From assembly GCF_033473495.1 (NCBI RefSeq), contig NC_088942.1, forward strand, positions 1,426,001 through 1,490,000: 64,000 nucleotides of DNA. Direction: 5' to 3'. Shown here piece by piece: positions 16,145 to 36,739 of the stretch; position 1 is the first letter of the stretch; each line of letters starts with the position of its first letter. Below the pieces are notes generated by a model. It ran no database searches, was not told the DNA's origin, and saw only the letters and a list, made by a program, of their open reading frames with translations. The stretch comes from Cercospora beticola. Taxonomy: Eukaryota > Ascomycota > Dothideomycetes > Mycosphaerellales > Mycosphaerellaceae. The translations under genes were made by a program, and so were the position numbers.

Positions 16145-18526
16145 ATGTCTGAATCGTGGACGTCTCTGCGGAGACGCATCTTTGGCGGCAGCGGAAGCAG
16201 CGACAGCACACCTGCAGAGTCGCGAGACTCAAGTCCGGCCCCAGCACCTCACGAAGCTTTGAAACGACCCGGCGCGTATCGTGTGCTGACGAACGAGAAA
16301 TTCGATGAGTTGAAGAAGGCCGTGAAGAGCAGCAAGGGTAAGAAGAGGAGGAACGCGTGGGTATTTGGCCTTGGACTGCTGGGAGGGCTGTCGGCAGCGG
16401 GTTTCTTTGCGAGCAAAGATGGCGCCCTGGATCAGTTGGTGTCGATGGCTGGGCTAGAGGATATGAACTTGGACAGCTTAATGGATGTATTGCCTACAGG
16501 GCTCATACGGGATGTGCAGGACATTCAGGTAAGCCATTTCTGCCACAAGTCGAGACCCGGAGCTGATCAGTTGACAAAGGTAATTTTATATAGTCTCGAG
16601 AGAAACAAGCTATTGATTACGACTCCTTCGCAATCGGTCTCCACGCTCGCAATGAGGGCATTCGTGCGAAATATCCCGTGATTATGGTTCCTGGTGTGAT
16701 ATCGACAGGTTTGGAAAGCTGGGGTACAGAAGACTCGTCAAGACAATACTTCAGAAAGAGACTATGGGGCTCGTGGAGTATGATGAGAGCGCTGATACTG
16801 GACAAGGCAAGTTGGAAGAGGCACGTTATGCTGGACAAGAAGACTGGTCTTGATCCGCCCGGCATCAAGCTAAGAGCGGCGCAAGGCTTCGATGCGGCCG
16901 ACTTCTTCATTACAGGATACTGGATATGGAACAAGATCCTTGAGAATCTGGCGACGATTGGATATGACCCTACGAATGCTTTCACGGCTGCGTACGACTG
17001 GCGCATGAGCTATCTCAATTATGAGATTCGAGATCAGTACTTTACACGCCTGAAGAATCACATTGAGATCGCAAAGCACGTGTCCGGCAAGAAGGCTGTT
17101 ATGCTGTCTCATTCGATGGGCTCGCAGGTACTGTTCTACTTCTTCCGCTGGGTAGAGGCAGAGGGATACGGCAACGGAGGACCATCATGGGTCAACGACC
17201 ATATTGAGTCGTGGATCAACATCTCTGGCTGCATGCTTGGTGCCCTCAAGGATGTACCAGCCGTGCTAAGTGGCGAAATGAGAGACACTGTTCAGCTGAA
17301 TGCCTTTGCAGTCTATGGCCTCGAGAAGTTCCTGTCGCGAATAGAACGCGCCGAGATCTTCCGCGCCATGCCTGGTATCTCCTCTATGCTTCCTATCGGC
17401 GGGACAGCAGTCTGGGGAGACGAAAACGGCGCGCCAGATGATGCTTGGAACCAGACTACCACTTATGGAAAGTTCTTGAACTTCAGAGAGATTAACAATA
17501 CTTTGACCCCAGGGAACATGTCTGTCCCAGGAGCCATCGACTACCTCTTCAAGAATACTGAAAAGTGGTATGTAGACCAGATTAAGAGCAGCTACAGTCG
17601 TGGTGTTGCACACACCAAGGATGAAGTCGAAGCCAACATGGACACGCCAGCCAAATGGATGAACCCGCTTGAGATTCGCCTTCCCATCGCGCCGGACATG
17701 AAGATCTTCTGTTTCTATGGTATCGGCAAGCCGACCGAAAGAGCTTACTACTACCGCGAAGAGCAAGATGCTAACAATGATACTGCTGTCATGATCGGTA
17801 AGGTTGAAATTTCTCCTGCACACATCCACATGCTTACGACTAACTCTCATGCCCGCAGACTCTACAGTCACCACCCCAGATGGCCTGGTTGACCACGGCG
17901 TCGTAATGGGTGAAGGCGACGGAACAGTAAACATCCTCAGCACAGGCTACATGTGCAACAAAGGCTGGAAAATCAAACGCTACAACCCCGCCAACATCCC
18001 TGTCGTCGCATACGAAATGCCTCACGAACCCGATCGTTTCAATCCTCGCGGTGGACCCAACACCGCAGATCACGTCGATATTTTGGGCAGAAGCTCGTTG
18101 AACGATTTGATACTGCGAGTTGCTGGAGGAAAAGGACATTTTATTCAGGATAATATTGTGAGTAATATTCTGGAGTATGCGGAGAAGGTGAAGATTGGTC
18201 CGGATTATGAGGGTGAGGAGAGAGTTGGCGATGCGAAGCCGCTCAAGAAGGGGGAGGCGGATGCTGTGAGTTTGCATCCGGAGGATGAAATTCCGCCTGG
18301 TGGGGAAGAAGAGAAGGATGGCGATGAGAAGAAGGGTGGAGAGGAGACGAATACCCGTGAAGAGGCCAGTAAGCAGAGTATTGATGATGATGATAAGAAA
18401 GGTGGTGCGGGGACGAACACGGATGGTGAGGCGAGCGGGATGGAGAAGACGGGAGAGAAAACTACGGAGACGACGGAGGAAGATGCGAAGGGGAAAGGTG
18501 GCAGCGCAGAGAAGGACGAGCTGTAG
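16145..18526 (+). CDS. LRO1: Phospholipid:diacylglycerol acyltransferase (PDAT) with C-terminal KDEL
   Basis: Three exons (16145-16528, 16594-17797, 17859-18526) give 751 residues. PDAT moves an acyl chain from a phospholipid to diacylglycerol, making triacylglycerol at the ER. After a basic cytosolic stretch (KGKKRRN, 64-70) a single membrane anchor spans about residues 71-89, giving a type II topology with a luminal catalytic domain. LCAT-family hallmarks: [17 protein letters not shown] lid region, nucleophile in SHSMGS (Ser302), Asp550 in GDGTV and His601 in DHVDILG; the spacing matches yeast Lro1. The last 120 or so residues are a repetitive acidic/lysine-rich tail ending exactly in KDEL, a canonical ER-retrieval signal. 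The second intron has a CTAAC branch site and in-frame read-through would add 29 residues then stop. Confidence 0.95.
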
Positions 18527-18738: not shown

Positions 18739-20118
18739 TTACACCATACCTCTATTCTGCGTAATCTGCTCTTTCGCAACCAGCACAGGACTCTCGTCGT
18801 CAATTCGTAGCACACTTTCCTGCTCGATATCCGTCTGCACATGGATATGCCCATCACTCACCTGCCGCTCCTCCGAACTCGACTTGTTCAAGCGCGGCCC
18901 CAGCTCAATATCTTCTGAGCTCTCCAGTAGCATATCCTGCCGGCCTGTCCAGGACCTCTTTGCTTTATGGGTTTTGAAACTGGCGCTTTGGCTCGTAACA
19001 TGCGTGTAACAGCGACTCTTCGACCGCGAATGTGTACTTTCGGGCGTCCAGCCGTCTGACGTGTTTGGTGCGTCGGGTTTGACGAATGAAGGGCCAGAAC
19101 TGGAGTGCGTGCCGTATTTCGATGCGCCTTTGAGCCATGTAGGGAAGAGACAGCGGAGGGTCGGGAGGCATGAGCAGATGATGCCGGTATTCATCTCAAT
19201 AGATGACCAGATGCATGCCATAGCATTCTCGTAAGTGATATCTTTGGACGACATCAAGTGGTACAGAGATGGCAGTCGTAAGATAGACACAATAACGACC
19301 AGTCCTCCGATCGCAAAGACTCCGACCAGGGCCCACTTCTGGCGCCGAGGCAATTGAAGCTTGTTGAGGAATGGCAATGGCAGTACAGTGATCAAGATGT
19401 CGGTGATCATGTTGAGTGACGTACTCGCAAGTGAAAGTGCCAGTCTGTCTTGACATGTTTTGTGCTTGATAGAGTGGTCCCAGAATGCTGCCGGCGGAGT
19501 GCAGGTGAGTATAGCTGATATGATTCTCCATATCGCATAGCATGAGACAATTGCCATGAGTGTGTATGTGGCGATGCGGATACCCCTTTGCGGAAACATG
19601 CGAAGGTACTGGAACATGATCGAAAACTTGGTGCAGAATAGCGAGCAGTTGTATACGATGATCATCAGCCAGTACTGCAGTCCGCATTGTCAGTGCTATG
19701 GTCGGGCTGTCTTTGGGCATCACTGACCGCTCTGAGGTTCAACATGGCCTCGTGAGGTCCTAGTGTCCATTCGTGGCTGCCGAGGCCGGTCTTCACCTAC
19801 TTCCCAAGTCAGGTCCGTATTCTTCGCTGAGAGCTGTGTCGAATTGGTTTATGAGAGGGGTAAAGCATTACCTGTGCGATCATAGTCGCTGTCGTAGCCC
19901 ACGCAAAGGACTTTTCCGAGTCAGCGACGCTGCTTGGGCACGTTCGAACAATAACGACTGCTCACCACTGATCCAAATATGCAGGCATCGTCTCGGCCAG
20001 CAGTTCTCGAGACGATAAATCGAGCGTAAAGGCGGAGAACTACCGCGACCGTGGCCAGAGATGTCATGACCACGGTCCAGGCCACAATCGCGGGTTTGCT
20101 TGCACTTCCATACAGCAT
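18739..20118 (-). CDS. Fungal rhodopsin-like seven-helix membrane protein (A)
   Basis: Four exons on the minus strand (20118-19966, 19910-19872, 19796-19728, 19674-18739) encode 398 residues. The layout fits the fungal 'rhodopsin domain' integral membrane family (Pfam Fung_rhodopsin type). Landmarks: VAVVLRLYARFIVSRTAGRDD after helix 1, a WA(T)-type second helix, YWLMIIVYNCSLFCTKFSIMFQYLR for helix 3, DILITVLPLPFLNKLQLPRRQKW and SSIEMNTGIICSCLPTLRCL. Members are fungal-specific and mostly unstudied; many lie in secondary-metabolite clusters. The family lacks the retinal lysine of true rhodopsins, so light sensing is not implied. The C-terminal 110 residues are a Ser-rich cytosolic tail. It forms the left edge of the predicted peptide cluster; membership is inferred from position. 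Confidence 0.85.
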
Positions 20119-21027
20119 CGTCTCAGTCGTGTGCCGCGACCAGCTATGCGTCTATGCGATCACCGGTGTCGAGCATATGTTTCCGGCCTCATGCTGCACA
20201 TCAATGCAGGTGGTTGGGAGGTGATGTCGGGCGGAGACATTGTCCGCCGCCATCATCCGGTAAGCTGTTCTCCAGGAAGGCCGCTGCAGTATTCTCCATG
20301 ACCTTGTCTCCTTTGTCGGCACAAGCATCCTGAGCCAGCTTTTTTAAGTATCTGAGCTTAATTTCGTCGCATAGTATCGAGAGCGTGCTTGCCTATGATC
20401 CTGGGCATACTGGATTCTCGACCATATAATGACCGCGCAGTATCGCAGAACAGCCTGTGCCCGGGGTCGGATTCACACAGCGTCGTTCGAGAAGGCAATC
20501 TCCATGTGGAACTCTCGTGCAAGTCTGCGACGGGCAACAAGCCTTGCTCAAGCGGGAGGAAGCTCTGCTGGGATCACTGAACTTTATGGAGGTCCGACGT
20601 CTCCGCAGTTTCGAGTGGTTATCTAGCGGGTAACCAACGCATCCAGACGATCGGATGCGGACGTTCGTGAGATCCAGGCCAAAGTCAACATGTCTCTTCC
20701 ATTGATGGAGTGTCAACGCATCCGAGGATATGTCCACTCGACTGTCGATCCGATCAAGACCTCTCAATCTCGCCCTGCTCCCGAGGACTCAGTAATCCAG
20801 ACGATGAGCGCCAAGGGTGGAATTCTGTAATCGGGCCTGAGGTGATCAGGAAGAACTTCGTGCCTTTCTGTGAAGAAGGAGCCATACGCGCTAGCGACAC
20901 GCCAAGAGAATTAGTCTCGCTTGGGGAGCGGTGCCTTGTCTTCAACACGCGTTCATCGCCTCTATTTCTACAAAACGATGCATCGGCAGGGCAGGATGCA
21001 GACGACACACGCAGCCATTCTTGAGGG
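20119..21027. other. Gene-free stretch inside the cluster
   Basis: The 909 bases lie between the rhodopsin-like A start and the monooxygenase stop. They should contain the promoter of the former and the 3' UTR of the latter. Frames up to 124 codons occur without signal peptide or domain. Confidence 0.45.
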
Positions 21028-22342
21028 TTACCGCAGCCTCGCCTCCAATTCCCGCACAGCTTCGTCGCGTGCTTTGCCGTTGTCAAAGTCCAGGATGAAA
21101 TCCCACCGCTGTGGCAATCTGCCCTTGAGACCGGCATGATCCATTGTGTATTCCGGATCGTTTCCCGTGAATATCAGACCCGTCTCCCGACTGGAGTCAA
21201 CAATCTTCTGTGTGCGGGGCCGGCGTGCTTCATCGTACACCTGCAGTGCTACTGATGCCTGCTTCGGCGTGGTTATCCGACCCAACAGCGACGAGAGCAC
21301 GAGAGCGTCTTCCATGGACATGCCGCCTCCCGACGACTGCCACGGAGTAGTTGCATGTGCTGCATCACCCATCACGGCTATCGGACCATCCGCGTATGTT
21401 CGTGCATGGGCGTGTTCCCACGTGCACCAGCACTGCACTGTTTTCTGGTCACCAATCACCTGTTGCAAAGTTAGCATGGTTTCGACCAACATCAGAAGGC
21501 CAACTAACAGCTGATAGGGCATTCCGTAGATGGGACGGCCAGCCCTCGAAATAGCCCTTGAACTCTTGAGCGTCTACTTCCTTCATCCAGGCATCGCCGG
21601 TGTCGATCTTCACTGTCGCAATGAACTGGATCAGTTCGCCTTCATTGAGCACATTGTGCATCATAAAGGTCCCCTTGCCAACCCAACCCCACTCCCGAGG
21701 GTCTTTGGTGTCCACGTAGTCAGCGCCAAGGATAGGTTTCAATTTCTCGTACGGCTGCAGCGTGGGTATTGCCATCATGTCGGCAGACACAGGCACTGCT
21801 GCTGGATCAGACTCGCCGAGAACAATCTTCCTGACAAAGCTGTGAATGCCATCTGCACCGATGAGGATGTCGGTCTCATGTGTGGAGCCATCTCCAAAAT
21901 GCAGCACGAGAGGTCCATCGCCGCTACGATCGACTGTCTTCAGCTTCTTGGATGCATGCATTCGTTCGCTCGGAACGCTTGCCAGGAGTTCTTTCAGCAA
22001 TGCAGCGCGATGCACGATACTGGTCAATCTCTTGCCTTCTTTCCTCGCATCGATTTCGTCGATCATCGTTCCTGCCCCAGGTCCCAGCGCCAGCATCAAT
22101 CTGGCGCCATAATGCGGCACAGAACCTGCCCGTTCGAGTGCTTCTCTTGCCGAAGGGCCGATGAGTTCTAACGCTTGGAAGGCATTGCGGGTCATGCCAA
22201 CAGCCATTCCAGCTTCACGAAACTCGGTGGCAGACTCGAATATGTGGACGTCAAGATGGTCGTGTTTGATCAGAGCGTGCATCAGCGTGGCGCCTGCCAT
22301 GCCTCCACCTGAGATGGCAATCCGGACTTTAGACTGAGCCAT
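21028..22342 (-). CDS. FAD-dependent monooxygenase, salicylate-hydroxylase-like
   Basis: Two exons on the minus strand (22342-21509, 21459-21028) encode 421 residues. It has the three fingerprints of group A flavin monooxygenases: the dinucleotide fold motif ISGGGMAGATL (Gly12-Gly17), the D-G motif IGADGIHSFVRK (Asp164-Gly165) and the ribityl-binding G-D motif GDAAHATTPWQSSGGG from Gly309. These enzymes use NAD(P)H and O2 to hydroxylate or epoxidise mainly aromatic substrates. No membrane segment or signal peptide is present, so it is probably cytosolic. It lies 512 bases downstream of the precursor gene on the same strand. A role in modifying the cluster peptide (for example on Tyr or Phe) or an unrelated catabolic role are both possible. 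Confidence 0.9.
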
Positions 22343-22854
22343 GTTTGCAAAGGTGGTGTTGGTTGCAAGCTGAGAATGCTGACGGACGTCTCACATCCAC
22401 GAGAGTTTGTGCACCGAACGAGAACGAGTGTTGGCAGGTGAGGACAATTCTCACTTCACATGTCGCGATAACTGATTTGGTGTGGAAGACGTGCCAACGG
22501 CCGCGCAAGTCACGTCACACGCGGACCTGCAGAGCAGCTTCCTCCTCAGCTCGGTGCCTGGTCAGATCAGCAGCGACAATGCCACCATGCACCCGCAGCG
22601 GCGCACGGGCAGCTGCGAGCAGAGTGTGATCCACGTGCTCGGTTCACAAATCGCGCAGTGCAGTGTGTCCGGCCGGAACAATGAAGACCTGAAAGCAGCT
22701 GACATTGATCGACATTACCGAACGAGGGTCCAATTGCCCCACCAAGCCACCACTTCGACCCTCAATACAACCTGCTCTATCCTTGCGAGCGTGGGTCGCA
22801 CACCTATCCTACAGATGAGGGCATGGATGGAACACTCATAGCGTGAAGAAAAGA
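22343..22854. other. Spacer between monooxygenase start and precursor 3' end
   Basis: The 512 bases probably hold the precursor 3' UTR and the monooxygenase promoter. A 119-codon plus-strand frame (22482-22841) has no recognisable features and was not called. Confidence 0.45.
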
Positions 22855-23220
22855 TCACTCCTTGTAGAAGGCATCTGCATCTGTGGAAGATCAGAATCGC
22901 ATTCATCGGGACATGCCCTACTAACTCACCGAATTCAGTCGTGCCATCCCGAGCCGTGACTACAATACCAGCGAGTGCGTCGTCGTCTCGCCTGCCCTTG
23001 TACCAGGCATCTGCGTCTGCGGGATATCAGAATCGCGCTCAATCAGTCATGTTTTATGCACTCACCAAATTCAGTCGTGCCATCCCGCGCTTCGAGTGCT
23101 GCATCGTTTCGCCTGTCCTTGTAGAAGGCATCCGCGTCTGGGAAAGTCAGTATCGAACTCACCAACATGTGCATCTACACTCACCGAATTCAGTTGTACC
23201 GTCTCGAGCTGAGACTATGC
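22855..23220 (-). repeat. Tandemly duplicated exon-plus-intron units in the precursor gene
   Basis: The end of exon 2 with intron 2, exon 3 with intron 3, and exon 4 with intron 4 are diverged copies of one unit, followed by a truncated exon 5. Each exon copy ends GAATT(C/T)G at the donor. Introns share similar 3' ends, cgat(a/t)ctga followed by a short pyrimidine run and cag. The unit spans about 120-136 nt. Confidence 0.85.
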
Positions 23221-23481
23221 CAGCGAGCGCATCATCTTCCCTTCTATTCACTGCTATTGACCGAGCTTGTCTGTTCCTGTGTGCAATATCGAAGCTGGAC
23301 TTGACAGCCTCATCTCGACTTGAGACAGCATTCGGCGACGACGCTTGACCTTCTGCAACTCAACTCGTTAGTGCAAAGCGCGCATGGAACTGATTTGACA
23401 ACCAGGCTTACGAGGCTCAATGATTACAGGTGCGGCAAATGCCAATGCAATGTATGCCAAGGCGACGATGAACGACTTCAT
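22855..23481 (-). CDS. Secreted repeat precursor peptide (predicted RiPP precursor)
   Basis: Five exons on the minus strand (23481-23412, 23352-23185, 23137-23066, 23016-22930, 22880-22855) give 140 residues in a continuous frame; every junction is phase 1 with gt(g/a)ag...cag ends. Residues 1-16 (MKSFIVALAYIALAFA) are a signal peptide. A linker follows to the first dibasic site, RR 60-61. Three copies of ARDGTTEFDADA[F/W]YK lie at 72-86, 96-110 and 125-139; copies 1 and 2 are followed by D/G-RR (88-89, 112-113) and copy 3 by a final Glu. Copies 1 and 3 are preceded by DDALAGIV; copy 2 is shorter. Signal peptide, Kex2-type sites and near-identical repeats beside UstYa-like genes are the hallmarks of dikaritin precursors. 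The exact core is unknown; F-DADA-(F/W)-YK is the likely candidate. It lacks the Trp-Cys pattern of alpha-pheromones. Confidence 0.85.
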
Positions 23482-24342
23482 GGCTACTAGCTTCGGTGGA
23501 TTTGTTCTGGTTGATGGTGCAAGAAGTCGACGACTCATGGAAAGGGAAAGATCAAGATATGAAAACACGCCGAGACCACACATCTATACCGCCACGAATG
23601 CTTGCTACGAAACCTTGCTCAAAGTTGCATCGATTGTGACACAACAGCAGCAAGCTCGCGGACCCGTTGCCTGACAAGGCAACTGACGCGTATCTAATAA
23701 AGGGTCGAGCAACTGGCGTACGTGAGTCCGTAGTAGGGTATGAGCCGGCCTCAAACTCGCATCACATGCTTTAGTTGCTTCGTTGGCCGGAAAAGAGAGG
23801 CAACTATCGGGACTCACGGATTGAGACGCGGAGCACTGGGGAGCCGTCTCAGAATTCGTGAAGCCAGTGTGGTTGATCACTGCATGTGTATCAGCGAGCC
23901 ATGAACAGCTGCCAATTCCGGTGTAGCACTTGCACACGAGGTGGTGCACAAAGAATCATCGAATGACCCGATCACCGAAAACCCCACATGCTGATGATCA
24001 TTCACTGCAGATCATTCCTGCAACGCGCTAGACCCGGGCAGTTTCATGCCAAGCGAGTATGTCTATCACAGCACTAAAGCTATTCGCTCTGCGAGAGCTG
24101 AAGACGTACCCTGCACGGCACACAAATCCTTCCAATTGCTTTGCATGTACGAACAAGCTCATGTGGCTGACAGCAGGATTACGCCAGCGGAATGCACCTG
24201 CAGCGTGGCGTGAAGGTAGCTGATCCATCATGGCTGGAGGCCTGACGTGAAGCTGTGACATTCTGCAGGCCCGCGAGACATTTCCTGACATGCGTCGATA
24301 CTGACCAGAGCAGTCGCTTCAGCACCAGCACCAGCACTGAAC
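23482..24342. promoter_or_regulatory. Divergent promoter region, precursor / UstYa-like A
   Basis: The 861 bases separate the divergent starts of the precursor and the first DUF3328 gene, consistent with co-expression. A 114-codon minus frame (23605-23949) is Cys-rich but starts without a signal peptide and was not called. Confidence 0.5.
23582..23588 (-). promoter_or_regulatory. Possible TATA element of the precursor gene
   Basis: TATAGAT on the minus strand lies about 100 bases upstream of the precursor ATG, followed by a pyrimidine-rich leader (tttccctttcc). Weak evidence from position and sequence only. Confidence 0.35.
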
Positions 24343-25203
24343 ATGGAACGCGAAGAAGAGCGGCCGTTTCTAGAGCAGAAGCTGGAAGACAGCGAGTGGC
24401 AGCAATATGTTCAACGGCGAAACTACAGACAACCTCCACGAATGTGGCTATGGCTATCTACAATCCTCAACATCGTCTTGTTCGCCGTATCTCTTTTTCT
24501 AGTATTCTTGCTAGCCTTCAAGCAGCAAGACACGACGATCCCTGAGCCATACTGTAAGCAATGACCAGAAAACCGATTCGTCCAAAATCAATCCTAAATC
24601 AATACAGCACCAGCCAATGAAGCCATTTCATACGAATATCGAAACATGACCGGGAACGAGAAAATCATGGTTGGCGACCCCACGCCCGCCTGGGAAGAAG
24701 CCATGCACAATCTCCTCGAAGGAACTCTCATTCGCGTCTCCCAAGAAGAACTCGATATCCTTGGCGAAGACTCCGTACCTCTCAAAGACGGAGGTTTCGC
24801 AGCCGGATTAGGCGTGGCGCATAACATCCACTGCGTGAAGAGGATCAAGCAATTCATGTACTTTGATTACTTCTATCCTGATGTCGAAGTTGGGAGCGGG
24901 CATTATAAGTATTTGCAACATCATGCCGGTAAGACCTGAATTTCGAATGACTAGAACATTATTTTCGAGCTGACATTGGATTTTGTTCCAGATCATTGCC
25001 TTAATTTCCTTCGTCAGAGTGTGATGTGCCATATGGATACTTCGTTATACACGCTCGTTTGGACGCCAGGAGAAGATGGCAAGGATGTGATTAAGCATAG
25101 GGCACCTGGGGAACAGAAATGTGTGAGTTGGGATAAGATGCAGGAGTGGATGCAAGCGAGGAGTACCAGTACGACTGTGTTGGTTCATAACTCGGAACAC
25201 TAG
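24343..25203 (+). CDS. UstYa-family (DUF3328) oxidase-like protein A
   Basis: Three exons (24343-24553, 24608-24928, 24992-25203) encode 247 residues. A charged N-terminus precedes one membrane helix (about 35-59), then the family's PEPYSPANEAISYE motif (68-80). The two signature motifs are intact: HNIHC at 142-146, followed by VKRIKQFMYFDYFY, and HHADHC with HxxHC at 176-180, followed by LNFLRQSVMCHMD. UstYa/UstYb-type proteins are membrane-anchored, probably copper-dependent oxidases that form macrocyclic ether or C-N links or halogenate in dikaritin, cyclochlorotine and victorin pathways. Both splice sites regenerate the motifs exactly. It is divergent from the precursor and convergent with the second family member only 79 bases away. 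Confidence 0.93.
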
Positions 25204-25282
25204 TCTCGAATGCCATGAGCCAATTACTGAACCATCGATTCTTATGCCCAAGAGAAGTTGACTAGATTTGGAGACCTGTCTG

Positions 25283-26196
25283 CTACGGACCGAAACTCCC
25301 CTCCTCAGCTTCATCCAGTACGTGGTCTTGCAACGGCGCGGGTATTGCTTTCTTATCCACCCACTCCTTGAATGGCTCCCACTTGATACACTTCCTTTCA
25401 TGATGACTGTAGCCTTTGAGCCCATGTGGAGCTTGCGAGTCGAAGTGCACTGTATGGACAGTCAAATCTGGTTGACACATCAACGCCGACCGAATGACTT
25501 CAATGCAATGATCGTAGTGCTCGGCCGTCAGCCGTCCATCATCGATCACATCTTGATACGATTCTTTGTGTGTCCATTGATATAGTCGTTTCTGCGATTG
25601 ATTACCATTAGTCGCTCGTCTGCCATTGAGATTCCTCTGTCGTTCTACTCACCAGACAGTGTAATTGATGGAATACTGCATAGTATCCTACGTAACCTCC
25701 TGTGCCTTTCACTGCTACTGATGACTTGTTCATCTTCTTCATTTCGGCCGGAGGCATATCGAGCATGGCTGGTCTTAGAAGATCTGACCAGGCTTCATCG
25801 AGCTCGGGGCGTGGTAGGCCGACGAATGGGCCTTTGGGTTCGACGTTTGGGATGCGGATTTCATGCTCTATGACATTGCGAGCAGGAGCTGTAGGAGAGT
25901 CTGGTTTAGTTTTCTGTCGAATCGGTCGTCCAATTGTACTCACAATAAATTTCTTGGACATCATCTGGTCGTTTCGAGATTCCTTTTGACGAGCTTGTCG
26001 AGTATGTGTGGTTTGCTGACATGTTGAATACCATGAAGCCAACATTGGCGGCGAGAAATGCCGCATGAAGAACGAAGAGGAGGTAGTGGATTCTTGTCCA
26101 TGATGGTTTCTTCTTGATCGTTTCATTGCTGGGTAAGGTACCATCTTCGGTCGTTCTCAGGAAAGGCTTCTCTTCGTCATATTCATTGAACGCCAT
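25283..26196 (-). CDS. UstYa-family (DUF3328) oxidase-like protein B
   Basis: Three exons on the minus strand (26196-25944, 25888-25653, 25591-25283) encode 265 residues. The start is the ATG in an excellent context (accgccATGG). One membrane helix spans about 36-58 (HYLLFVLHAAFLAANVGFMVF). The family motif IYSPARNVIEHE is at 83-94. The catalytic pair is complete: HQLHC at 158-162, then KRLYQWTH, and HYDHC at 188-192, then IEVIRSALMCQPD. It is distinctly different from protein A, so the two are not recent duplicates. This mirrors the UstYa plus UstYb pairs that act together in known pathways. The last exon continues with a conserved KCIKWEPFKEWV block. Confidence 0.93.
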
Positions 26197-27233
26197 GGCG
26201 GTGCCTGCCAAAACGAAGTCCGTCTCTCTTGCTAGAACGTGAGCAGCCCAACGCGTTTGTTGCAGTCACTCTCGACATTCTTTCTCACGACCAGCTCACA
26301 CTCGTTCGAGGATGTCGCACGCGAACGGGCACCCGATCCTACTAGCTCGCACAGAGTCCAGCTGCGCACACGAGCTGAATGCCGTGGGGGCCGTCTGACA
26401 GTCCCTCCGCATGACGCACGCCAACTTGTACAACCTTGTGGTATATTGCAGCCGGCAGACCTCTTCTTACCTGTGATCCTTCGGGCATTGCTCCACCTTC
26501 ATTCCTCCAGTGACAACCAAGCCTGGCTCCTTCCAAGGACCCCTCAAGCCACCAAGGATCCGAAGATCTACGCTATGCAAAGCTAAGCACAAGTATGCAT
26601 ATTTCTCGACTACCGAAACGAATCACAGCCTGTGTCACTCGCACATGTGGCGTGTACTCTGTGTGTATAACCGTAGATCTCTTTCTGCTTTACCCGCCTG
26701 CTTATCGGGCAATAACCCGAGGCGCCTTTCATATCGGAAAGTTGGAAATGCGGGACGTTTCTGCGCAGATCTTTTCCACTTTGTCTGCTCTACCAAAGGT
26801 GATCGTCAGCTTCGGTCGCCGGGCCTGCGAATCTGTACCATTGGTCGCAGATCATAAGAATAGTACGGTTACGCTGCGAATACGTACCACAAACTATTGC
26901 TGCACAGAAGGTAGTATTTCGACTAGCGATGCTTTCGAGTGGATGGTTTACTCAGCTTTCCGCCGCATGTAGTACCTTGGTTTTTTGCCACGCAATGCTC
27001 ATGTGCTGTTCGCGTGCCGGAGAGCTCAAACCAGATGCGTGTGCCGGGTTTGTGCTCCTGCGAGTGTTGTTAGTCTGGTCACAGTATTATCATCAGCCGT
27101 AGCTGCTGCGCGTATTTGCGCTCGTGTCCACCCTCAGGCAGACGAATCCTCAGCTCTTGAGGAACCCAACAATTTACCAACAGGGTTCGGTATTCCAAGT
27201 CGTTGCTGATGAGCTGTCTCTCATTTGATCAAC
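26197..27233. promoter_or_regulatory. Divergent region, UstYa-like B / rhodopsin-like B
   Basis: About 1 kb between divergent starts with no recognisable gene. Small frames (115-125 codons) overlap in several phases. Confidence 0.45.
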
Positions 27234-28628
27234 ATGGGAAGTTATCATTATGTTAATTTCGCCTCGGTCACGGCTATTGGCATCATCTTTCCCGTGCTTG
27301 GTCTCATCGCTCTTGGGATACGAATCTATGGGCGAGTCAAGTATACGAGATCGTTAGACATTGATGATGTTCTCATCGTCCCAGCTGCGGTGAGTCAAGC
27401 GCAAAGAGGGCTCCATTCTCAGTCAACGAAGCTGATCGCAGTGTCAAGATCCTTATGGTCGCCGCAGGAGTGGGCATGGTCATCGCTGCGCAGATGGGAT
27501 TCGTCGGAGGCCATGCGCCATACAGGACATTCGAAGAACTCATGTTCGGGAAGCCAGAGCGTCAGCTTATGCTCGAAAAGGTTGGTCGGACTCGTGCGTT
27601 TCTGTGTTGAATTTCATCGCTCATTCGCCTTGCACAGCTCGAATACGCATACTGGATTGGCCATGTCCTCGTCATCGGCTTCACCAAGTTGACCTTCCTC
27701 TTCTTTTCCCGAAGAATATTCCGAGGACGTGGAGCTCAAACGAAATTTGACTACGTGAACTGGCTCATGATTGGAGTAGTGACAGTGTGGATGGTGGCAT
27801 ATGTATTCCTGGAAATTTTCAGTATGTCTTGCTCCATTCTCCAGGCTTCTTGTTGCTTACAATTCTAGTGTGTGGCTTGAACTTCTGGGCTGCCTGGGAC
27901 ACAGTCTACGCGCTGAGGACCTACTGCATGGATACCTTTGCGTTGTTGACATCCTGCGCGATCACGAACTGGGTCATCGACTTGGCGATCTTCGCCATTC
28001 CTCTTGTTATGGTGAGCATTCTTCGCGCTCGCAGGATCAATACCATCGTGCTGACCATGAAACAGATCAACAGCCTGCAAATGACAGCAAGACGGAAGGT
28101 CCAGGCCTCACTTGTCTTTGCCCTCGGTCTCTTGTAAGTAGTCCCAGAGTTGTGCTGGCTCGGAGCTAATGTGTACAAAGTACGGTAATCGCTGGATTGC
28201 TGCGCATGATCATCGTCTGTCAAGTCGTCGAAAATGGCCTCATGAGCCCAACGATAACTCTGCTCGGCACAACCTTCGAAACCACCGACAATGAAGGTAC
28301 AATATCCCTCATACTGTTCTGGACGTACGTCGAAATCGGAGTTGGTTTCCTCGTGGTATGCCTGGTCGCATGCGGGAGGGTGTTCGACGAAGCGTCCGCA
28401 CCGGTTCTTCGAAAGCTCAAATCGATGGTATCAGCGGCGACCAGCGTGGCGTCAAGGGCGTCGAGCAGGTCCTCGTTGTTTTCAGAAAATTCTAAAGACG
28501 AGAAGGATGATCACAGAATTAGTGTTTCGACAAAGGTTGAAGTGGTGTCAAAGGATGAAGAGAAAGGTATGCCAGCAGTCCCTGAATGGTTGCAAGCTAG
28601 CCGGAGAGGGACATTAGACCTAGATTAG
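27234..28628 (+). CDS. Fungal rhodopsin-like seven-helix membrane protein (B)
   Basis: Six exons (27234-27389, 27449-27580, 27638-27821, 27869-28011, 28066-28133, 28181-28628) give 376 residues. The sequence shows seven predicted helices of the fungal rhodopsin-like family. Landmarks: IALGIRIYGRVKYTRSLDIDDVL, EYAYWIGHVLVIGFTKLTFLFFSRRIFRG, CGLNFWAAWDTV, WVIDLAIFAIPLVMINSLQMTARRKVQASLVFALG and LFWTYVEIGVGFLVVCL. The acceptor of the first intron was placed at tcaag (27448) because the nearer cag would shift the frame. A Ser/Lys-rich cytosolic tail of about 80 residues ends the protein. Function is unknown. With protein A it brackets the RiPP cluster; a role in product sensing, resistance or transport is speculation. 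Confidence 0.83.
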
Positions 28629-28773: not shown

Positions 28774-31700
28774 TCACCAGCCTCTTCTTGCGCTTCTCGC
28801 CTCGTGACCCTTCTCCTTCTTCCTGCTCTTCTTGCTTTCATACTTTCTCTGCTTACTCTTCTGCCATCGTTCTGGCTCGGTGACGGCTTCGATTCTTCTC
28901 TTCTGTCTCCGCTCCTCCCTTCTGAGTTTCGCTTCGCTACGAGTGACGGCCAACGCAGCCAAGAACTTCTCCTGACCAAGCTTCTGTTGGATCAAATTCA
29001 GAAGCTCTGCAGCGTTGTCCTGCAACTTTTGGTGCCGGTCGCCCGGGGCTTTGGGCACAGTCGGGTCCGTGAGTGCATAAAGTGGGCGAAGAATGGGCTG
29101 AAGACTCGTGCCAGGGATGCTACCCAAGTGCTTGATAGTCTTTGCGAGGGTATCCAGGGCAGCTGTGCGAGAGACAATGGAGAATTTATCAGCCATCAGC
29201 ATTGACGACAGCCGGCGGAGCAGATGAGCGATTGCCAGCTCGGAGACGCGTTCATCCTCATCCTGCTCTTCATCATCTTCAGAGGCTTCGGAACTCAGTA
29301 CGGCCTGATCGTTCCATGGCATCTCGTTGGCCGCGAAGAAACGACCAAGATCGGCAAGATTGCGCACAATGTGGGCTGTGAGACTGTCCTCAGTGCTGAG
29401 AGCTACAGCGCGTAGCGCTCGCAAAGAGACAAGACAAAGGCGTCGCATGTCCTCTGCGCCGAGCTCGAGACCTCCAGAGCCTCTCAAAGGCAGACCAGCA
29501 AGGCCTGTTGCAGTTTTGGAGCTGGTGCTTGCAAAGTCCGCGAAATAGTCCCCTTGGAGCGAAGCAACCATTGTCTGCACTCGTGCATCGTCAGTGGCCG
29601 GGAGCTTATGAACGGCTTGCCATACGTCTTCAGAAGACTCTGCGAGTCCAACTTCAGGAAAGCGCTGGACTAGGACAGCAAGGACCTGCAACGCATCATG
29701 GACCACTTGCGGTTGAGAGAACTCTCCATCCTGCTCCGTGAGGATGTCCTCCACTTTACTACGCAACCCGGCAAGCTGCTTCTGCGATAGCTGACGGTTC
29801 TGGAGTAGGATTCTCCAGCACTGCAATGATCCGGCCTTGAGCAGTGGCTTATCTTTCCTCAGCCACGTCTCCATGGTGCTGAGCAGTTGCGCCATCAATT
29901 TATCATCTTCTGCTCGTTCGAAGATCTTGGCAATGAGCAGCTCGGCCGAATCACGACACTTGGCATCAGGATCAGCAATTAGCAACGGCACCAGAGTCAA
30001 GAAAATCTCGAGTGCTCGATCTTGTATCACATCGTCGCCGACCTTGTCCAGCATTGAGTACAAGAATGTCATCACGCTTTGTCGTCCTGCAGCATGTTTG
30101 TACTTCAGGTTCGTGACGAGGAAGGACGTCTGCTTCTCCCATCGATCTTTGCCTTGTGGGAAGTCCATGACGAAAGTGAAATATGCACTTCTCGCGCTGT
30201 CTCTAATCGACTGATCCGGGTTGGTAACCATAGCCTTGCCCACCTCATCCATGACTTCGTAGACTTCTGCAATAACAATCTTTCGTCCAAGGATTGCCCG
30301 TAAGAATTTGTAGATGACGCCCTGACGATCTGGCTCATCGACATCGTTCTTGACACGCTTCAGTAGCAGCGCGATATCCTTTTCTTTGATCTGCACGGAG
30401 CGTCTCTCGCGTAACACGGACGTGATGAGCTCAAGCGCTGCTTGAGAAGCATCAGTAGTACTGCTGGAAGCGCTTTTGATCATCGCAACGGCCTCTTTGA
30501 CATAGACAGGTGCATCCTCCTCCAGCTGCTTGATGGGAACGCGCATGATGGTTGACAAAAACCGGACTGCGGCAAGCTTGACTTCTTCTTGGCCTTGTAT
30601 CAGAGCATCTCCTGCCATAGGTAAAAATTCTGCCATGTTTGCAGGTGTTTGCAAGTCTTCATGGCGCCGGACTACCTTTCTGAGCAGACTGAGCGCAAAT
30701 GCGATGAGCTTGTACCTGTAGGACGCAGTACCGCCTTTAGGGCCAAGTTTCTTCTTCTCCGGTTCTGGCTGGATCTCATAACGCTTGCGGCGCTCATCAA
30801 TCGCGGGTTTCGATGTCTGAGCATTCTCTCCAGCATAGACCTGGCTAACTATCTCCCAGCAAAACTTGAGCATGTCTCGGCTGTCAGCCTCAGGGTTCTG
30901 GTCCAGTCCTTTGCGAAGCCGTAGGAGTAGATCATCGATCTTCTTGACCGATTTGTTGTCCAGCATTTCAGAGAGCATGCTATGGAGCGGTCGTACCAGA
31001 GCTCCTAATTGACGTACTGGGGTCACTCGCGAGAGAAGTTCCATCGTGTCGTAGCTTTTGCTACTCTTGACTTCCTTCATTCCACTCTTGTACTCCTCGG
31101 CATCCTTTTCTTGGCCAGTAACGCCAAAGATATCATCCATGATCACGTCCATGAGATGTGGTAGACATTCATCGAGATCACCCGGCTTAAAACTGTCGAG
31201 ACTGCCGACTAGCAGAGAGTGCACAGTAAAGGACAAGACGTGCAATTGATAGCCGCGTTTCAAGGATCCCTTGAGCTCCTTCAGGATAAAGCTGAAATAA
31301 GTAGGCCCGACGAACTCCAGTATCTGTGCAAGGGCCTTTCTCGTTTGGTCACGAGCTTCTTGGCTTCTACTGCGTAGAACGTGGCAAATGTCCGTAAGCA
31401 CTCCAGGCAGTCGCGAGGCAAATTCCTCTTGCGGCAAAGATGACATGAGCTTGACAATCGTCACGGCTATAGAAATGCGTCGGTCGACAGTAGACTCATC
31501 TTTCTGCTGCAGGTATGCCAGCAGGGGAGTGAGCTGCTCTCTGATGATAGCTTCGCTGATTGGTCTTTGATCTTGAGGCAGGGCGATGATGCCCTCGACC
31601 ATCTCACGAAGAAGCTGGAGGACTCGCTTCTCGATAGTCTCGTGATCATCTTTCTCCTTGTTCTTGAGATAGCCGATGTACCGCTGGAATGTGGAACGGA

Positions 31701-34700
31701 AACTGTTTTTATTGAGGGCTTTGCCAAGCGCACCAATGGCTTTCCTGGTCTGATTAGCAAGATTGAGTCCAGCCTCTCCCTCAGCCGCGTCGAAGACGAA
31801 ATGTTCTAGGAGTGGCAGAAGTATGCGAAAGGCACTATTCGAACCCACATTTGCGGCCTCGCTTTCAAGCACTTGCACTGCAGCCATCCTGCGCCGGAGT
31901 TGAATATGTAGCACGTTGAGAAAGAAAGACGTCTCCTCATCCTCGTGCCCCCGGAGGCGTAAACCACTGATCTTCTGCCATTCCGGAAATGTTCCAATGA
32001 TGTGATTCAGGACCTGGCAGTACTCGGCCCGTACCAGCTCGGACTTCTCATGCATACCACGCTCGATGCCGGCGAGCACGGCATGTTCGAGCAGCGACAT
32101 CCATCGCTGCTGATCGGCGTGCTTTGATGCAGCAGACACGAACAGCTGGAGGCCATACGAAGCATCAGTGCGGTTCACGCGGTCTTCCGGATCGCGGATG
32201 TAGAAGAGCAAGTTGTGTACCAGTGGTAACCATTGCTCAATGGTGAAATCTGAGCTGGAGGACTTCACCTTGTTGAAAGCGCTGTCGCGCCGCTGGAAAT
32301 CCGGTTCATCCAGTCGTGTTCCCCGGGCATTCATGTCTTCGCAAACATGAGCGATGTCACTCAGTGATGGGTCATCACGTACAAGTGCAGCGAGGACCTT
32401 AGAAAGTAGCACTCGGCTCTCTGCATGGGACAGACGGGAATACAGTACGCAAACCGCATCGTACAAATCATCTCTGCTCTCTACACCGAAGTTCTCGATG
32501 AGAGGCAAGATCGTCCGCAGCAGACCAGACTTGGTTGGAGGAGAAACCTCCCTGTTGGGTTTCTTGAGAAGTTCCGTGCATGTCCTGGTAACGTGCGCAG
32601 CTTCAGACTCTGATTGAATCCGCCCAGCAAGCTGTGAGAAAGAGTGCACACAGGCATCTAGAGCATCCTTGGACGGCTGCTGCTCAATGACTGCTCCGAT
32701 GGCTTTGACGAAGCTTGACACATGAGGCTGCAGAATTGTTGGCTCGATGTCAATCGTAACAAGGTTGTCCAAGACTTGCTGGAGCACAAATAATTGTACT
32801 TCTTTCTTTGTGTGCTTGCCTTGAAGTAGGTCTGCCACCTGCGCCAATATCGCGTGTCCAGGTCCAATGAACAAGGAAGCAGTATCATTGCGTTCGCTCC
32901 AGGCAGAGAAGAGACGTAAGGTACCTGACACGGATTGCGCAGTTTCGATTGCAAACGAGCTCAAGCGAGGCAAGATCAGCTTTTCAGTGACTATGAGACC
33001 ATATTGTTGTGTGTCAAAAGCTGTCATCGTGGCAAAAATCTTGACCAGACACTGTATGCCAGTCTGTCGAATGGAGCGGGCCAAGGCCGGATCGGAGCCG
33101 TTCTCTTGTTCCAGCTTGTGCGCTGCACTGATGGTACATGCAAGGATGACTCGCGCGAGCTTTGGCGCGAATGTCTCGAGACCATCACCAAGCGTTCGCA
33201 GCATGTCGTCCAACATGTTGACCAGACCAAGTTGCTGACGTAGCGACGTCCTGGGCATCGGGATCTCATCAGTGCTCTTCTCAAATTCTTCACCAGCGAG
33301 GGGCTTGCACGCAATGTCGAGAAATGCTCCCAATGTATCTTCGCCAAATCTTGACAAAGCAACAAATATCGCCTTGCGGCGGCCGGATTGGCCTTCCTTA
33401 CCGCCTGCTACCGCGCGGCCGTACAACAAGCGCAGAAGAACTGGCATTAGAGTTGCATGATCTTCCGGACGGATGCCGTCCTCGCCTTCCCCAGATTCAG
33501 CTGCATCGTGCAAAAAGACCGACAGCTCTTCACGGAACCGGTTTTCGTCAAGAAGATTATTGAGGTGTTCTTGATATCGGGTGAGCGACTTGTCTTTCCA
33601 AGCGAGCACAGCTTTGAGCGCGGACTTCTGAATCTCAAGATCACCGTTTCCACATAGCGCCAGTAGTGCGCTAAACACGGCTTCCGCCTTGTACAGCACT
33701 CTCGGGTTGTTGAATTGAGCAAAGATTCCCAGCAAGGCCTTCTGGTCCTTCCGCGCCCAACGATCCGAGCCCGATGCTTCATCGTCGCCTTCCTGCACCG
33801 ATCCTGCCCATCTTAGCAGAGTGGGAACAAGCAAACGCGAACGTTTCTCTGCGATCTGTGGAATCTTGCTCAAGACCCGCAGTGCTTGAGATCGCGCACT
33901 TTGCGAGATCAATGGCATTTTTCGCGTGTCTAAGCTTAGTTGTTCTTCGGGGGAAGGCAGACCGCTGTATGGGACCTCGAAAACTTGCTTAGAAATTGCT
34001 TGCATCTTGGCGAAATTTGGGCATTCGAAGCTCGAAAAGACTTTGAAGCCGTCAGTGTCGACGTCCATCAGCTGAGGTGTCTGTGGCAGCGGCTCGTCAT
34101 CCGATTTTCCATCGATCCATTTCTGAGCTAGGCTTATGACAACTTCTTCTCCGACCTTGTTCTGACTGATAGCGGCAAGCGCTTCGCTAGCGTCCTCCCA
34201 CGCCTGGGAAAGATTCAAGTGGAGCAAGCCGAAGAGGAAGGTTGGGATGGCTCTTTGCATGACGTCGCCGCTGGACAAGGTGGTGTATTGTGGTGGAATG
34301 CGTCGAATGTTCATGGACATTGACCTGGCGGCTTCTAGGGAGATGGGTATCGACTCCACGAGGATCGCAGTCGCAAGGATCGTTGGCTCTTCCAATCCTC
34401 GCAACCTGTACAGTTCTTGGAGGATGTCCAGAACATCCTGCCTGATTGAGTGCGACGCCGAACACAGAGAAGACACAAGCACATCTTCAAGTACGCGAAT
34501 ATGCTCGCCCTGAACGTCCGTCGGCTTGTACTCCTTGATGAAGGTCAGCAGATTGGTCCAGAAGGCTGGCAGAGGTGCCATTTCCGGACTTCTTTGGCAA
34601 AGTGCCGGCCATGAGCCAGAGAGAAATGTCGTTGCAGGTCTCATGACAAGCAATTGGCGCAGGACGGAGCCGTATATGAGCGATTTTGTCTCAAGTGGAG

Positions 34701-36360
34701 TGGCATCTTCGGCATGAAGTACTGCTTCTACCAAGTTCAGTGATGCCTCGCGGAAGCTATCAACAGTGCTGTCGTCGATCGCAAGATGCGGCAATGCACG
34801 AAGTAGCAAATTCGAATGCGCAAGAGCTTGAGTGCTATCAGCTTGGACGCTGTTGATTTCTGCGATACAGGCCAGCATATGTTGTATGGCAGTTCTCGAG
34901 CATTTCAGCTTCAGATCCGGCCTCGTTCCACCTACGCGAACGACCAGTGAGAGAAGGTGGGGGTCGTTGAGTTCAGCTCGCTCAGCAACAAAATTTCGCA
35001 GATATGGTAGCAAAATCTCGTTGAAACGATCCGCGCCAAGTCTGTGCACCATATCGCAGAATTGTGCGAAATAAGGAGCCCAGGTGCCGTTGCGGAAAAT
35101 GTCTAGCGTCTTGACCATCTTCTGGACAGCTCCGATGGGCGCCGACTGCAGTACCAGGGCGTATAGACTGAGTACAGCGTGTGCGAGCTTTGCGTCTTGT
35201 TCCTGTAGCCTCTGAGCTGCGGTGGCAAGGTCCTCAGTGACTTGCACAACAGTTTTCCATTCTGTGATACGAGAGCCTTTGCGTACGGACACGGCTGTGG
35301 AAAGCAGGGAAGTGCAGAATTGGATGCTAGTGGCACTAGCTGCACCTACGCTCTGTTGTATGTGCAAGACAATCGTGTCTAAGACAGGCTTGAAACCCTC
35401 CTGGTTGCTGAAGTGGATAAAGTCGGTTAGCAACCCACAAACGATGCGCTCGGCACTGGCCGATTCATCCTGCATGATCCTCTCAGCCGTCGGGAAAGTT
35501 GTCTGCAGTATAGCGGCACCGCCGTTGGCGAGCCCTTGCTGAACGCCTCGAATCGATTCACTAAGCACAGCCATGACACCTTGCTGATGGAGATCCGCGG
35601 TAGTCTCCGTGGTCGTCTGAGCACAGTCGTTCAGTATGCGTTCTACGACGGTAGTCAGGGGCTTGGAATCCCGTTCATAGACAATGGCTGCTTTTCGCAC
35701 CAGGAACGCGAACGCTTCAGCGGCGTATCGGACGATGAATGGCTTCTGTTTCTCTTTGCCCATATAAGGAGCCAGCAGGTCATACAAAGGTCGGAGGTCC
35801 GGCACGAGCAATCGCGAGAGATGCTTGAACAACCATGCCAAACAGTCAAAACCGGCGTTTATCACTGCCAGGTCTTCGTGCTTTGCGGCGACAGCCAGGA
35901 CGGAAGCCACGGCGCGTTGGAAGTGCTTCTCGAAGCGGGTGTCCAGATCTCGGGCCAAGTTCCATAGCAAATTGAACAGCGGGTCCATAGCCAGCGCATC
36001 GCCTCTTCCAATGTATTCCATCAGCAAGTCCACAATCTTGTTCTCGTTGTGCAGGACCACGGGCAGGTTGTCGCATAGCGGGGCGGCATCTTTGGCGAAT
36101 GCGCTGAAGGTTGTCGACAGATTTGTATCCCTCCATTCTGACAGAGCCTCCCCAAAGTATGTGTGCGAAGTCTCTACCTCCTTCTCTTCCTGCTCAACAT
36201 GTCGCCTCCGTCGAATCGGGTCGATCTTGAGCGTTGCGATGCGCTCGTTGAAGGACTGGAAGCGGTAATTTTTGGTGTGTGCCGTCGTTCGTTTCGTGTC
36301 CTTCTTCGGCTTGACGACCTTACTGGCCTTGACGCCTCGTCCTCTAGCCATGGACGACAT
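28774..36360 (-). CDS. UTP20: U3 snoRNP-associated protein Utp20
   Basis: A single uninterrupted frame of 2528 residues, close to yeast Utp20 (2493). Utp20 is an all-helical HEAT-repeat scaffold of the 90S/SSU processome, needed for 18S rRNA maturation in the nucleolus. The N-terminus has the conserved HTKNYRFQSFNERIATLKID segment, then HEAT-like repeats throughout, including VVLHNENKIVDLLMEYI and FDCLAWLFKHLSRLLVPDL characteristic of the DRIM/Utp20 family. The C-terminus is a lysine/arginine-rich coiled tail (about residues 2460-2528), as in orthologues. The absence of introns across 7.6 kb is unusual beside its intron-bearing neighbours. The ATG at 36360 was chosen; a second in-frame ATG three codons on is equally usable. 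Confidence 0.95.
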   Translation of the reverse strand: MSSMARGRGVKASKVVKPKKDTKRTTAHTKNYRFQSFNERIATLKIDPIRRRRHVEQEEKEVETSHTYFGEALSEWRDTNLSTTFSAFAKDAAPLCDNLPVVLHNENKIVDLLMEYIGRGDALAMDPLFNLLWNLARDLDTRFEKHFQRAVASVLAVAAKHEDLAVINAGFDCLAWLFKHLSRLLVPDLRPLYDLLAPYMGKEKQKPFIVRYAAEAFAFLVRKAAIVYERDSKPLTTVVERILNDCAQTTTETTADLHQQGVMAVLSESIRGVQQGLANGGAAILQTTFPTAERIMQDESASAERIVCGLLTDFIHFSNQEGFKPVLDTIVLHIQQSVGAASATSIQFCTSLLSTAVSVRKGSRITEWKTVVQVTEDLATAAQRLQEQDAKLAHAVLSLYALVLQSAPIGAVQKMVKTLDIFRNGTWAPYFAQFCDMVHRLGADRFNEILLPYLRNFVAERAELNDPHLLSLVVRVGGTRPDLKLKCSRTAIQHMLACIAEINSVQADSTQALAHSNLLLRALPHLAIDDSTVDSFREASLNLVEAVLHAEDATPLETKSLIYGSVLRQLLVMRPATTFLSGSWPALCQRSPEMAPLPAFWTNLLTFIKEYKPTDVQGEHIRVLEDVLVSSLCSASHSIRQDVLDILQELYRLRGLEEPTILATAILVESIPISLEAARSMSMNIRRIPPQYTTLSSGDVMQRAIPTFLFGLLHLNLSQAWEDASEALAAISQNKVGEEVVISLAQKWIDGKSDDEPLPQTPQLMDVDTDGFKVFSSFECPNFAKMQAISKQVFEVPYSGLPSPEEQLSLDTRKMPLISQSARSQALRVLSKIPQIAEKRSRLLVPTLLRWAGSVQEGDDEASGSDRWARKDQKALLGIFAQFNNPRVLYKAEAVFSALLALCGNGDLEIQKSALKAVLAWKDKSLTRYQEHLNNLLDENRFREELSVFLHDAAESGEGEDGIRPEDHATLMPVLLRLLYGRAVAGGKEGQSGRRKAIFVALSRFGEDTLGAFLDIACKPLAGEEFEKSTDEIPMPRTSLRQQLGLVNMLDDMLRTLGDGLETFAPKLARVILACTISAAHKLEQENGSDPALARSIRQTGIQCLVKIFATMTAFDTQQYGLIVTEKLILPRLSSFAIETAQSVSGTLRLFSAWSERNDTASLFIGPGHAILAQVADLLQGKHTKKEVQLFVLQQVLDNLVTIDIEPTILQPHVSSFVKAIGAVIEQQPSKDALDACVHSFSQLAGRIQSESEAAHVTRTCTELLKKPNREVSPPTKSGLLRTILPLIENFGVESRDDLYDAVCVLYSRLSHAESRVLLSKVLAALVRDDPSLSDIAHVCEDMNARGTRLDEPDFQRRDSAFNKVKSSSSDFTIEQWLPLVHNLLFYIRDPEDRVNRTDASYGLQLFVSAASKHADQQRWMSLLEHAVLAGIERGMHEKSELVRAEYCQVLNHIIGTFPEWQKISGLRLRGHEDEETSFFLNVLHIQLRRRMAAVQVLESEAANVGSNSAFRILLPLLEHFVFDAAEGEAGLNLANQTRKAIGALGKALNKNSFRSTFQRYIGYLKNKEKDDHETIEKRVLQLLREMVEGIIALPQDQRPISEAIIREQLTPLLAYLQQKDESTVDRRISIAVTIVKLMSSLPQEEFASRLPGVLTDICHVLRSRSQEARDQTRKALAQILEFVGPTYFSFILKELKGSLKRGYQLHVLSFTVHSLLVGSLDSFKPGDLDECLPHLMDVIMDDIFGVTGQEKDAEEYKSGMKEVKSSKSYDTMELLSRVTPVRQLGALVRPLHSMLSEMLDNKSVKKIDDLLLRLRKGLDQNPEADSRDMLKFCWEIVSQVYAGENAQTSKPAIDERRKRYEIQPEPEKKKLGPKGGTASYRYKLIAFALSLLRKVVRRHEDLQTPANMAEFLPMAGDALIQGQEEVKLAAVRFLSTIMRVPIKQLEEDAPVYVKEAVAMIKSASSSTTDASQAALELITSVLRERRSVQIKEKDIALLLKRVKNDVDEPDRQGVIYKFLRAILGRKIVIAEVYEVMDEVGKAMVTNPDQSIRDSARSAYFTFVMDFPQGKDRWEKQTSFLVTNLKYKHAAGRQSVMTFLYSMLDKVGDDVIQDRALEIFLTLVPLLIADPDAKCRDSAELLIAKIFERAEDDKLMAQLLSTMETWLRKDKPLLKAGSLQCWRILLQNRQLSQKQLAGLRSKVEDILTEQDGEFSQPQVVHDALQVLAVLVQRFPEVGLAESSEDVWQAVHKLPATDDARVQTMVASLQGDYFADFASTSSKTATGLAGLPLRGSGGLELGAEDMRRLCLVSLRALRAVALSTEDSLTAHIVRNLADLGRFFAANEMPWNDQAVLSSEASEDDEEQDEDERVSELAIAHLLRRLSSMLMADKFSIVSRTAALDTLAKTIKHLGSIPGTSLQPILRPLYALTDPTVPKAPGDRHQKLQDNAAELLNLIQQKLGQEKFLAALAVTRSEAKLRREERRQKRRIEAVTEPERWQKSKQRKYESKKSRKKEKGHEARSARRGW

Positions 36361-36739
36361 GCTGTCTACATGTCGCTGTCTTGCAGACGGTCGCCAAAAA
36401 AGTTCAAAAGTTCTCGAGAGCTTCCAGCGGACTTCTTAAACTAGCCGAAAGCTTATCTTGCATCGCGCTTTCCCCCTTTGGGAGCAGCATGAAAAGACAT
36501 CGCGAGCGGAGAGGAAGTCGCGTAACACATGTGCATCACCGAGAGAAGCCACCCGCCTCCAATAGCCAGACCTTTTGTGCATTCCAAAGGGCTCATGGGC
36601 AGGAATCGCATATGTTCGTCGATGCTCAATTGAGATCAGCCGTCGTCACATGAGTGCTTCCAGCTTCCTCTCACAAGCTCATCACTGAATTCACCTCACG
36701 CGTCGGCAACTGACGACAATCGCACGTCGAGCATAAAAC
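36361..36739. promoter_or_regulatory. Divergent promoter, UTP20 / DRN1
   Basis: The 379 bases separate two genes of RNA processing. No TATA box is evident. The compact arrangement suggests co-regulation, for example with ribosome biogenesis genes. Confidence 0.5.

Follow-up and report, generated by a model that had tools for sequence, protein, structure and literature searches.

The dikaritins ustiloxin, phomopsin and asperipin-2a, and victorin alongside them, are alike in a secreted multicore precursor, Kex2 sites and DUF3328/UstYa proteins with paired HxxHC motifs. The mark of the class is a DUF3328 protein with two HXXHC motifs (PMC12048977), and UstY enzymes are described as working through a dicopper site and as making, for example, the Tyr-O to Phe-Cβ ether of asperipin-2a (PMC12186524). 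A Golgi/Kex2 route of precursor processing has also been described (PMC9233826). Here we consider a locus of this build in a 64 kb stretch (hereafter the window) of the genome of Cercospora beticola, a leaf-spot fungus of sugar beet, in which a repeat precursor stands beside two UstYa/DUF3328 genes, designated UY1 and UY2 (Table 1). We regard this as probably a dikaritin-type locus for a ribosomally synthesized and post-translationally modified peptide (RiPP), with the precursor, UY1 and UY2 as its supported unit. The locus matches published dikaritin features in a signal-like start, repeated cores, Kex2 sites and DUF3328 neighbors with two HxxHC motifs each (HNIHC and HADHC in UY1, HQLHC and HYDHC in UY2). 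In contrast to the dikaritin cores, the core seen here is longer and acidic, with a Tyr next to the last residue.

The spliced precursor carries three cores of the form DGTTEFDADA(F/W)YK, the units being ARDGTTEFDADA(F, W, F)YK, behind an N-terminus predicted from sequence to be signal-like (MKSFIVALAYIALAFAAP; hydropathy of residues 3-17 averaging 2.34). Cores 1 and 2 are each followed by one further residue and then by RR, a Kex2 site. A signal-like N-terminus with repeats parted by Kex2 sites is the make-up of a Kex2-processed repeat protein (KEP). For DGTTEFDADAFYK, the computed linear average mass is 1479.5. When the three cores are compared with one another, six of the 13 codons vary synonymously only and a single codon changes its residue (F/W), while the spacers, unlike the cores, vary in both length and sequence; this combination of synonymous core variation and divergent spacers points to selection on the core. 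The repeats themselves exceed chance, as the precursor is the only gene with Kex2-flanked repeated 7-mers found by a repeat scan of the window, and a DNA pattern for DADA(F/W)YK has just three exact matches in 36 Mb, all inside the precursor gene. With one mismatch allowed, two further matches appear (C4, C9), as against one for a reversed control pattern. No precursor paralogue was found in the same genome by a protein search, whose four matches all lie within the precursor gene.

A single search of 5.77 billion proteins, at E values up to 10, returned seven relatives of the precursor: those of C. kikuchii (P0001), C. zeina, C. zeae-maydis, Septoria linicola and Pseudocercospora musae, together with P0005 and P0007. 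Repeated cores are present in six of the seven, P0007 being a sequence that runs through intron-like sequence. The C. kikuchii protein has the same length as the C. beticola precursor and is 94% identical to it, without gaps across the splice junctions. The 20 core copies collected, the window's three included (19 by regular expression, and one overlapping P. musae copy by eye), follow the pattern R-DG(S/T)TEF(D/N)(A/P)D, continued in the five named species by Ala, a variable hydrophobic residue, Tyr and Lys/Arg. Across these five species of three genera, the core is thus nearly constant save for the one residue before the invariant Tyr, which may be F, W, M, L, V, A or I. That the core is so conserved from one genus to another suggests a signal or a fixed target, and speaks less for a toxin that changes fast. 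The locus also offers a natural series of variants at this one position, and both UstYa specificity and the role of the peptide in leaf-spot fungi could be directly tested with it.

The precursor keeps company with the UstYa genes elsewhere in the Mycosphaerellaceae. The C. zeae-maydis precursor (CERZMDRAFT_103038), UY1 (CERZMDRAFT_52560) and UY2 (CERZMDRAFT_103040) are on contigs of equal size, 241103 bp; in S. linicola all three are likewise on contigs of equal size, 2612956 bp; and in P. musae the precursor (AC579_3888) and UY2 (AC579_3842) are on contigs of equal size, 154818 bp. Because the precursor shares contigs with both UstYa genes in two species, and with UY2 in a third, it is the trio that is supported as a unit, the membership of the nearby monooxygenase and rhodopsin-like genes being unproven. 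The initial annotation had held that the whole block makes a cyclised peptide. The part of this that stands is a multicore secreted precursor beside two DUF3328 proteins with complete HxxHC pairs, while the claim for the additional genes, and for cyclisation as such, went further than the evidence; the linkage in other species, on the other hand, makes the RiPP case stronger than it had been in that account.

Several observations weigh against assigning the locus to a dikaritin-type pathway. The linkage is read from equal contig sizes rather than from gene order, and the P. musae tags of precursor and UY2 differ by 46. Zasmidium, Diaporthe, Hypoxylon and Aspergillus steynii have UY1 homologues, at 44-47% identity, but the precursor search returned no matching precursor from them. 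The P0005 cores, which read DADLAFFK or DADLGFFK in their second part, have Phe-Phe where the others have Tyr and misfit a strict need for that residue. A dibasic pair precedes DG(S/T)TEF in P. musae and P0005; only a single Arg stands before the core in Cercospora and Septoria, and hence the N-terminal cut of the released Cercospora peptide is uncertain. A Pfam scan of the block proteins, which did not take in every small open reading frame (ORF) of the gaps, showed no peptidase or tyrosinase; the asperipin-2a and U. virens ustiloxin clusters are described as having no peptidase gene (PMC12048977).

Beyond the conserved core and the linked genes, the chemistry of modification is taken from the family, and might run as follows. 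The N-terminal signal would take the precursor into the secretory pathway, where Kex2 would cleave at the RR sites after cores 1 and 2. UY1 and UY2, each with one predicted N-terminal membrane helix, would oxidize the core in the lumen, as family chemistry suggests, most likely forming a side-chain cross-link through the invariant Tyr close to the C-terminus of the core; by analogy with the UstY enzymes that form Tyr ethers, this Tyr is the most likely donor of the cross-link. Other proteases may shorten the spacers as far as the invariant Arg that stands ahead of DGTTEF. The monooxygenase may have a tailoring role, and the modified peptide would be secreted. In a predicted model of a UY1 orthologue, P0008 (mean predicted local distance difference test score, pLDDT, 71.7; predicted template modeling score, pTM, 0.49), which is of medium overall confidence, one N-terminal helix has a membrane-spanning look and is followed by two helices that carry the two HxxHC motifs; the UY2 model (mean pLDDT 40.6) was too poor for use. 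A fold search with the UY1-orthologue model against the PDB gave 231 matches with E values of 10 or less, none of them at 0.001 or below, and by sequence no convincing relative of UstYa was found among solved structures, the best match being SH3 domain-binding protein 5 (E 0.026).

One may ask whether the precursor simply yields secreted peptides that go unmodified and act like pheromones or as signals to the host, while the UstYa pair acts on some other substrate. Unmodified peptides are common, in that 78% of 7878 surveyed Kex2-repeat proteins are counted without a DUF3328 neighbor (PMC7329392), and the core is long, acidic and conserved, which could fit a signal. We nevertheless consider this unlikely, since precursor and UstYa genes sit on shared contigs in three other species, and DUF3328 genes are, in the account given by the same survey, seldom found next to pheromone precursors, three cases excepted (PMC7329392).

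That UY1, UY2 and the monooxygenase might instead modify a small molecule made elsewhere, in the manner of cyclochlorotine, with the repeat protein an unrelated secreted bystander, draws on the hydroxylation and chlorination carried out by DUF3328 proteins in that pathway (PMC12048977), and on the automatic name of the UY2 cluster, ‘Cyclochlorotine biosynthesis pro...’. With no synthase in the Pfam scan of the block proteins, which left small gap ORFs aside, and with the precursor-UstYa linkage kept, we find such a role most improbable. There is somewhat more to be said, though still very little, for a decaying or silent remnant that has no product in C. beticola. With the canonical splice sites tried, no open frame ran across the joined exons of the right-hand rhodopsin-like gene, so this gene is either mis-modelled or decayed. 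Decay of the locus as a whole is hard to square with the splice models of the precursor, UY1, UY2 and the monooxygenase, in all of which the frames are open, or with core codons that change almost only synonymously. A dikaritin-type locus remains the reading that we prefer.

The precursor gene has a further feature, in that an intron interrupts every core between DGTTEF and the remainder. With the shared splice ends removed, the similarity scores of the three intron pairs were reached by 2, 0 and 0 of 2000 shuffles; since the introns are alike beyond shuffled sequence and stand at the same codon position, the repeat unit was probably duplicated at the DNA level along with its intron. All three internal exons are phase 1-1, and in-silico skipping of exons 3 and 4, singly or together, leaves the cores whole, so that exon skipping would alter the number and kind of cores without breaking them. 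One could therefore picture the peptide as a conserved, UstYa-modified secreted signal of the Mycosphaerellaceae, not a toxin, with a product mix (core number, F or W kind) set by splicing, but this is a speculative extension to which we attach a low probability. Introns inside repeats can, in any case, hide precursors from genome mining.

With respect to published cores, the initial reading that the core is unlike those of ustiloxin, asperipin and victorin is borne out for the cores compared, and the EDYXI motif of ustiloxin and phomopsin, as defined in PMC6339444, is absent from the core copies. The epichloecyclin precursor GigA is similar in being secreted, probably Kex2-processed and made of imperfect repeats, and Tyr-Ile side-chain cross-links have been proposed there (PMC9233826). 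Epichloecyclins, however, are described as nonapeptides with an N-terminal Ile and an internal Tyr (PMC9233826), whereas the C. beticola core starts with Asp. The orphan motif DADAATXYV[A/V]D (Le Marquer 2019, PMC6339444) has DADA and a following Tyr in common with our core, a by-eye resemblance to be taken as a lead only; our core differs in its DGTTEF part and in the spacing to Tyr.

The precursor shares the architecture of KEPs with DUF3328 neighbors (Umemura 2020, PMC7329392), which number 1758 (22%) of the 7878 counted; Cercospora is not named in the main text of that survey, and the protein may be in its supplementary table. Because so many DUF3328-linked KEPs have been counted, and four more candidates lie in this genome (see below), the locus adds to a known type: its product is very probably a modified secreted peptide of that general kind, with a core family that we have not found in print. 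The description of the cluster as new thus holds at the level of the literature text searched, where core strings and topic searches gave no report of the core or cluster, the supplementary tables of large surveys lying beyond that coverage. In the databases, UY2 is 100% identical over 265 amino acids (aa) to CB0940_10477 of C. beticola, and database entries for orthologues carry hypothetical or UstYa-type names. One antiSMASH fungal-RiPP cluster is counted in the genome paper of C. kikuchii, and may or may not be this one. Four DUF3328 clusters are reported to go up in banana leaf infected by P. fijiensis (PMC5006380), and the orthologue may or may not be among them. The product is known for few fungal DUF3328 RiPPs; the locus offers a defined core with a small, testable gene set.

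Turning to the neighborhood, ORF and splice models with Pfam matches recover the full gene list of the initial annotation, namely the repeat precursor, two DUF3328 proteins with paired HxxHC motifs (both matched by the PF11807 profile), an FAD monooxygenase and two rhodopsin-like proteins. The position given for them, between LRO1- and UTP20-type genes, was likewise correct: the block is flanked by a PF02450 LCAT gene at 16594-18526 (E 2.2e-91), which we take to be LRO1-type, and by UTP20 at 28774-36435 (E 8e-178).

Table 1. Features of the precursor-UstYa locus, in window coordinates.
Feature	Position	Strand	Evidence and remarks
Precursor gene	22855-23481	minus	splice model, five exons; C. 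kikuchii protein aligned through same junctions
Precursor exons	23412-23481, 23185-23352, 23066-23137, 22930-23016, 22855-22880	minus	140 aa spliced
Intron 2, inside core 1 (DGTTEF / DADAFYK)	23138-23184	minus	GT-AG, 47 nt, phase 1
Intron 3, inside core 2, same codon position	23017-23065	minus	GT-AG, 49 nt, phase 1; similar to introns 2 and 4
Intron 4, inside core 3, same codon position	22881-22929	minus	GT-AG, 49 nt, phase 1
UY1, UstYa/DUF3328 protein, 247 aa	24343-25203; exons 24343-24553, 24608-24928, 24992-25203	plus	PF11807 E 4.5e-40; orthologues in Cercospora, Septoria, Pseudocercospora
UY2, UstYa/DUF3328 protein, 265 aa	25283-26196; exons 25944-26196, 25653-25888, 25283-25591	minus	PF11807 E 3.2e-37
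FAD-dependent monooxygenase, 421 aa	21028-22342; exons 21509-22342, 21028-21459	minus	PF01494 E 9.8e-15; membership unproven
Left-hand rhodopsin-like membrane protein, exons partly resolved	18739-20119	minus	PF20684 E 1.9e-56 for 18739-19689; start by eye; membership unproven
Right-hand rhodopsin-like gene	27234-28628	plus	PF20684 E 1.3e-6 for 27751-28137; membership unproven

Genome-wide, PF11807 gives 63 exon matches, or some 45 genes in 34 loci, a low count in which UY1 and UY2 are merged. The repeat scan covered, in addition to the window, 3-kb stretches at the 30 best PF11807 matches (L001-L030) and 10-kb stretches at 13 of the 33 other loci (L036-L048). It yielded four further precursors with repeats flanked by Kex2 sites, L041, L043, L046 and L047, whose cores are quite unlike the one described here; two of these precursors also appear as L019 and L003. 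The cluster is therefore one of at least five candidates in the genome, and less surprising for it. All four are UstYa-linked. L041 (G000:C7:40300-50200, minus strand, ~7000-7800 of the reverse complement) has ~15 QFYPVYG(V/A)N-type cores between KR sites, and L043 (G000:C8:1137600-1147500, plus, ~9330-9600) has three QYIG(V/T)PYAYYNNYKDA repeats ending in KR sites. Two QGYPDGYYEDEAYVPP repeats are found at L046 (G000:C9:445900-455800, plus, ~8860-9020), and EVPYEVGLTY-type repeats at L047 (G000:C9:616000-625900, plus, ~4870-5450), where frame changes between repeats suggest introns within the repeats here too. Further repeats were flagged at L001, L007/L011/L043, L016 and L021/L038, those of L016 and L038 being judged by eye not to be precursor-like.

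The rhodopsin-like family is itself large, with 113 PF20684 exon matches in ~70 genes genome-wide. A PF20684 gene lies within 6 kb of 2 of the 34 UstYa loci, where 0.92 would be expected (P 0.24), and a UstYa locus with two such neighbors arises in 1.45% of random placements. Another site at which a PF20684 rhodopsin-like gene lies beside a UstYa gene, the two ~1 kb apart, is at G000:C2:2895055-2897246.

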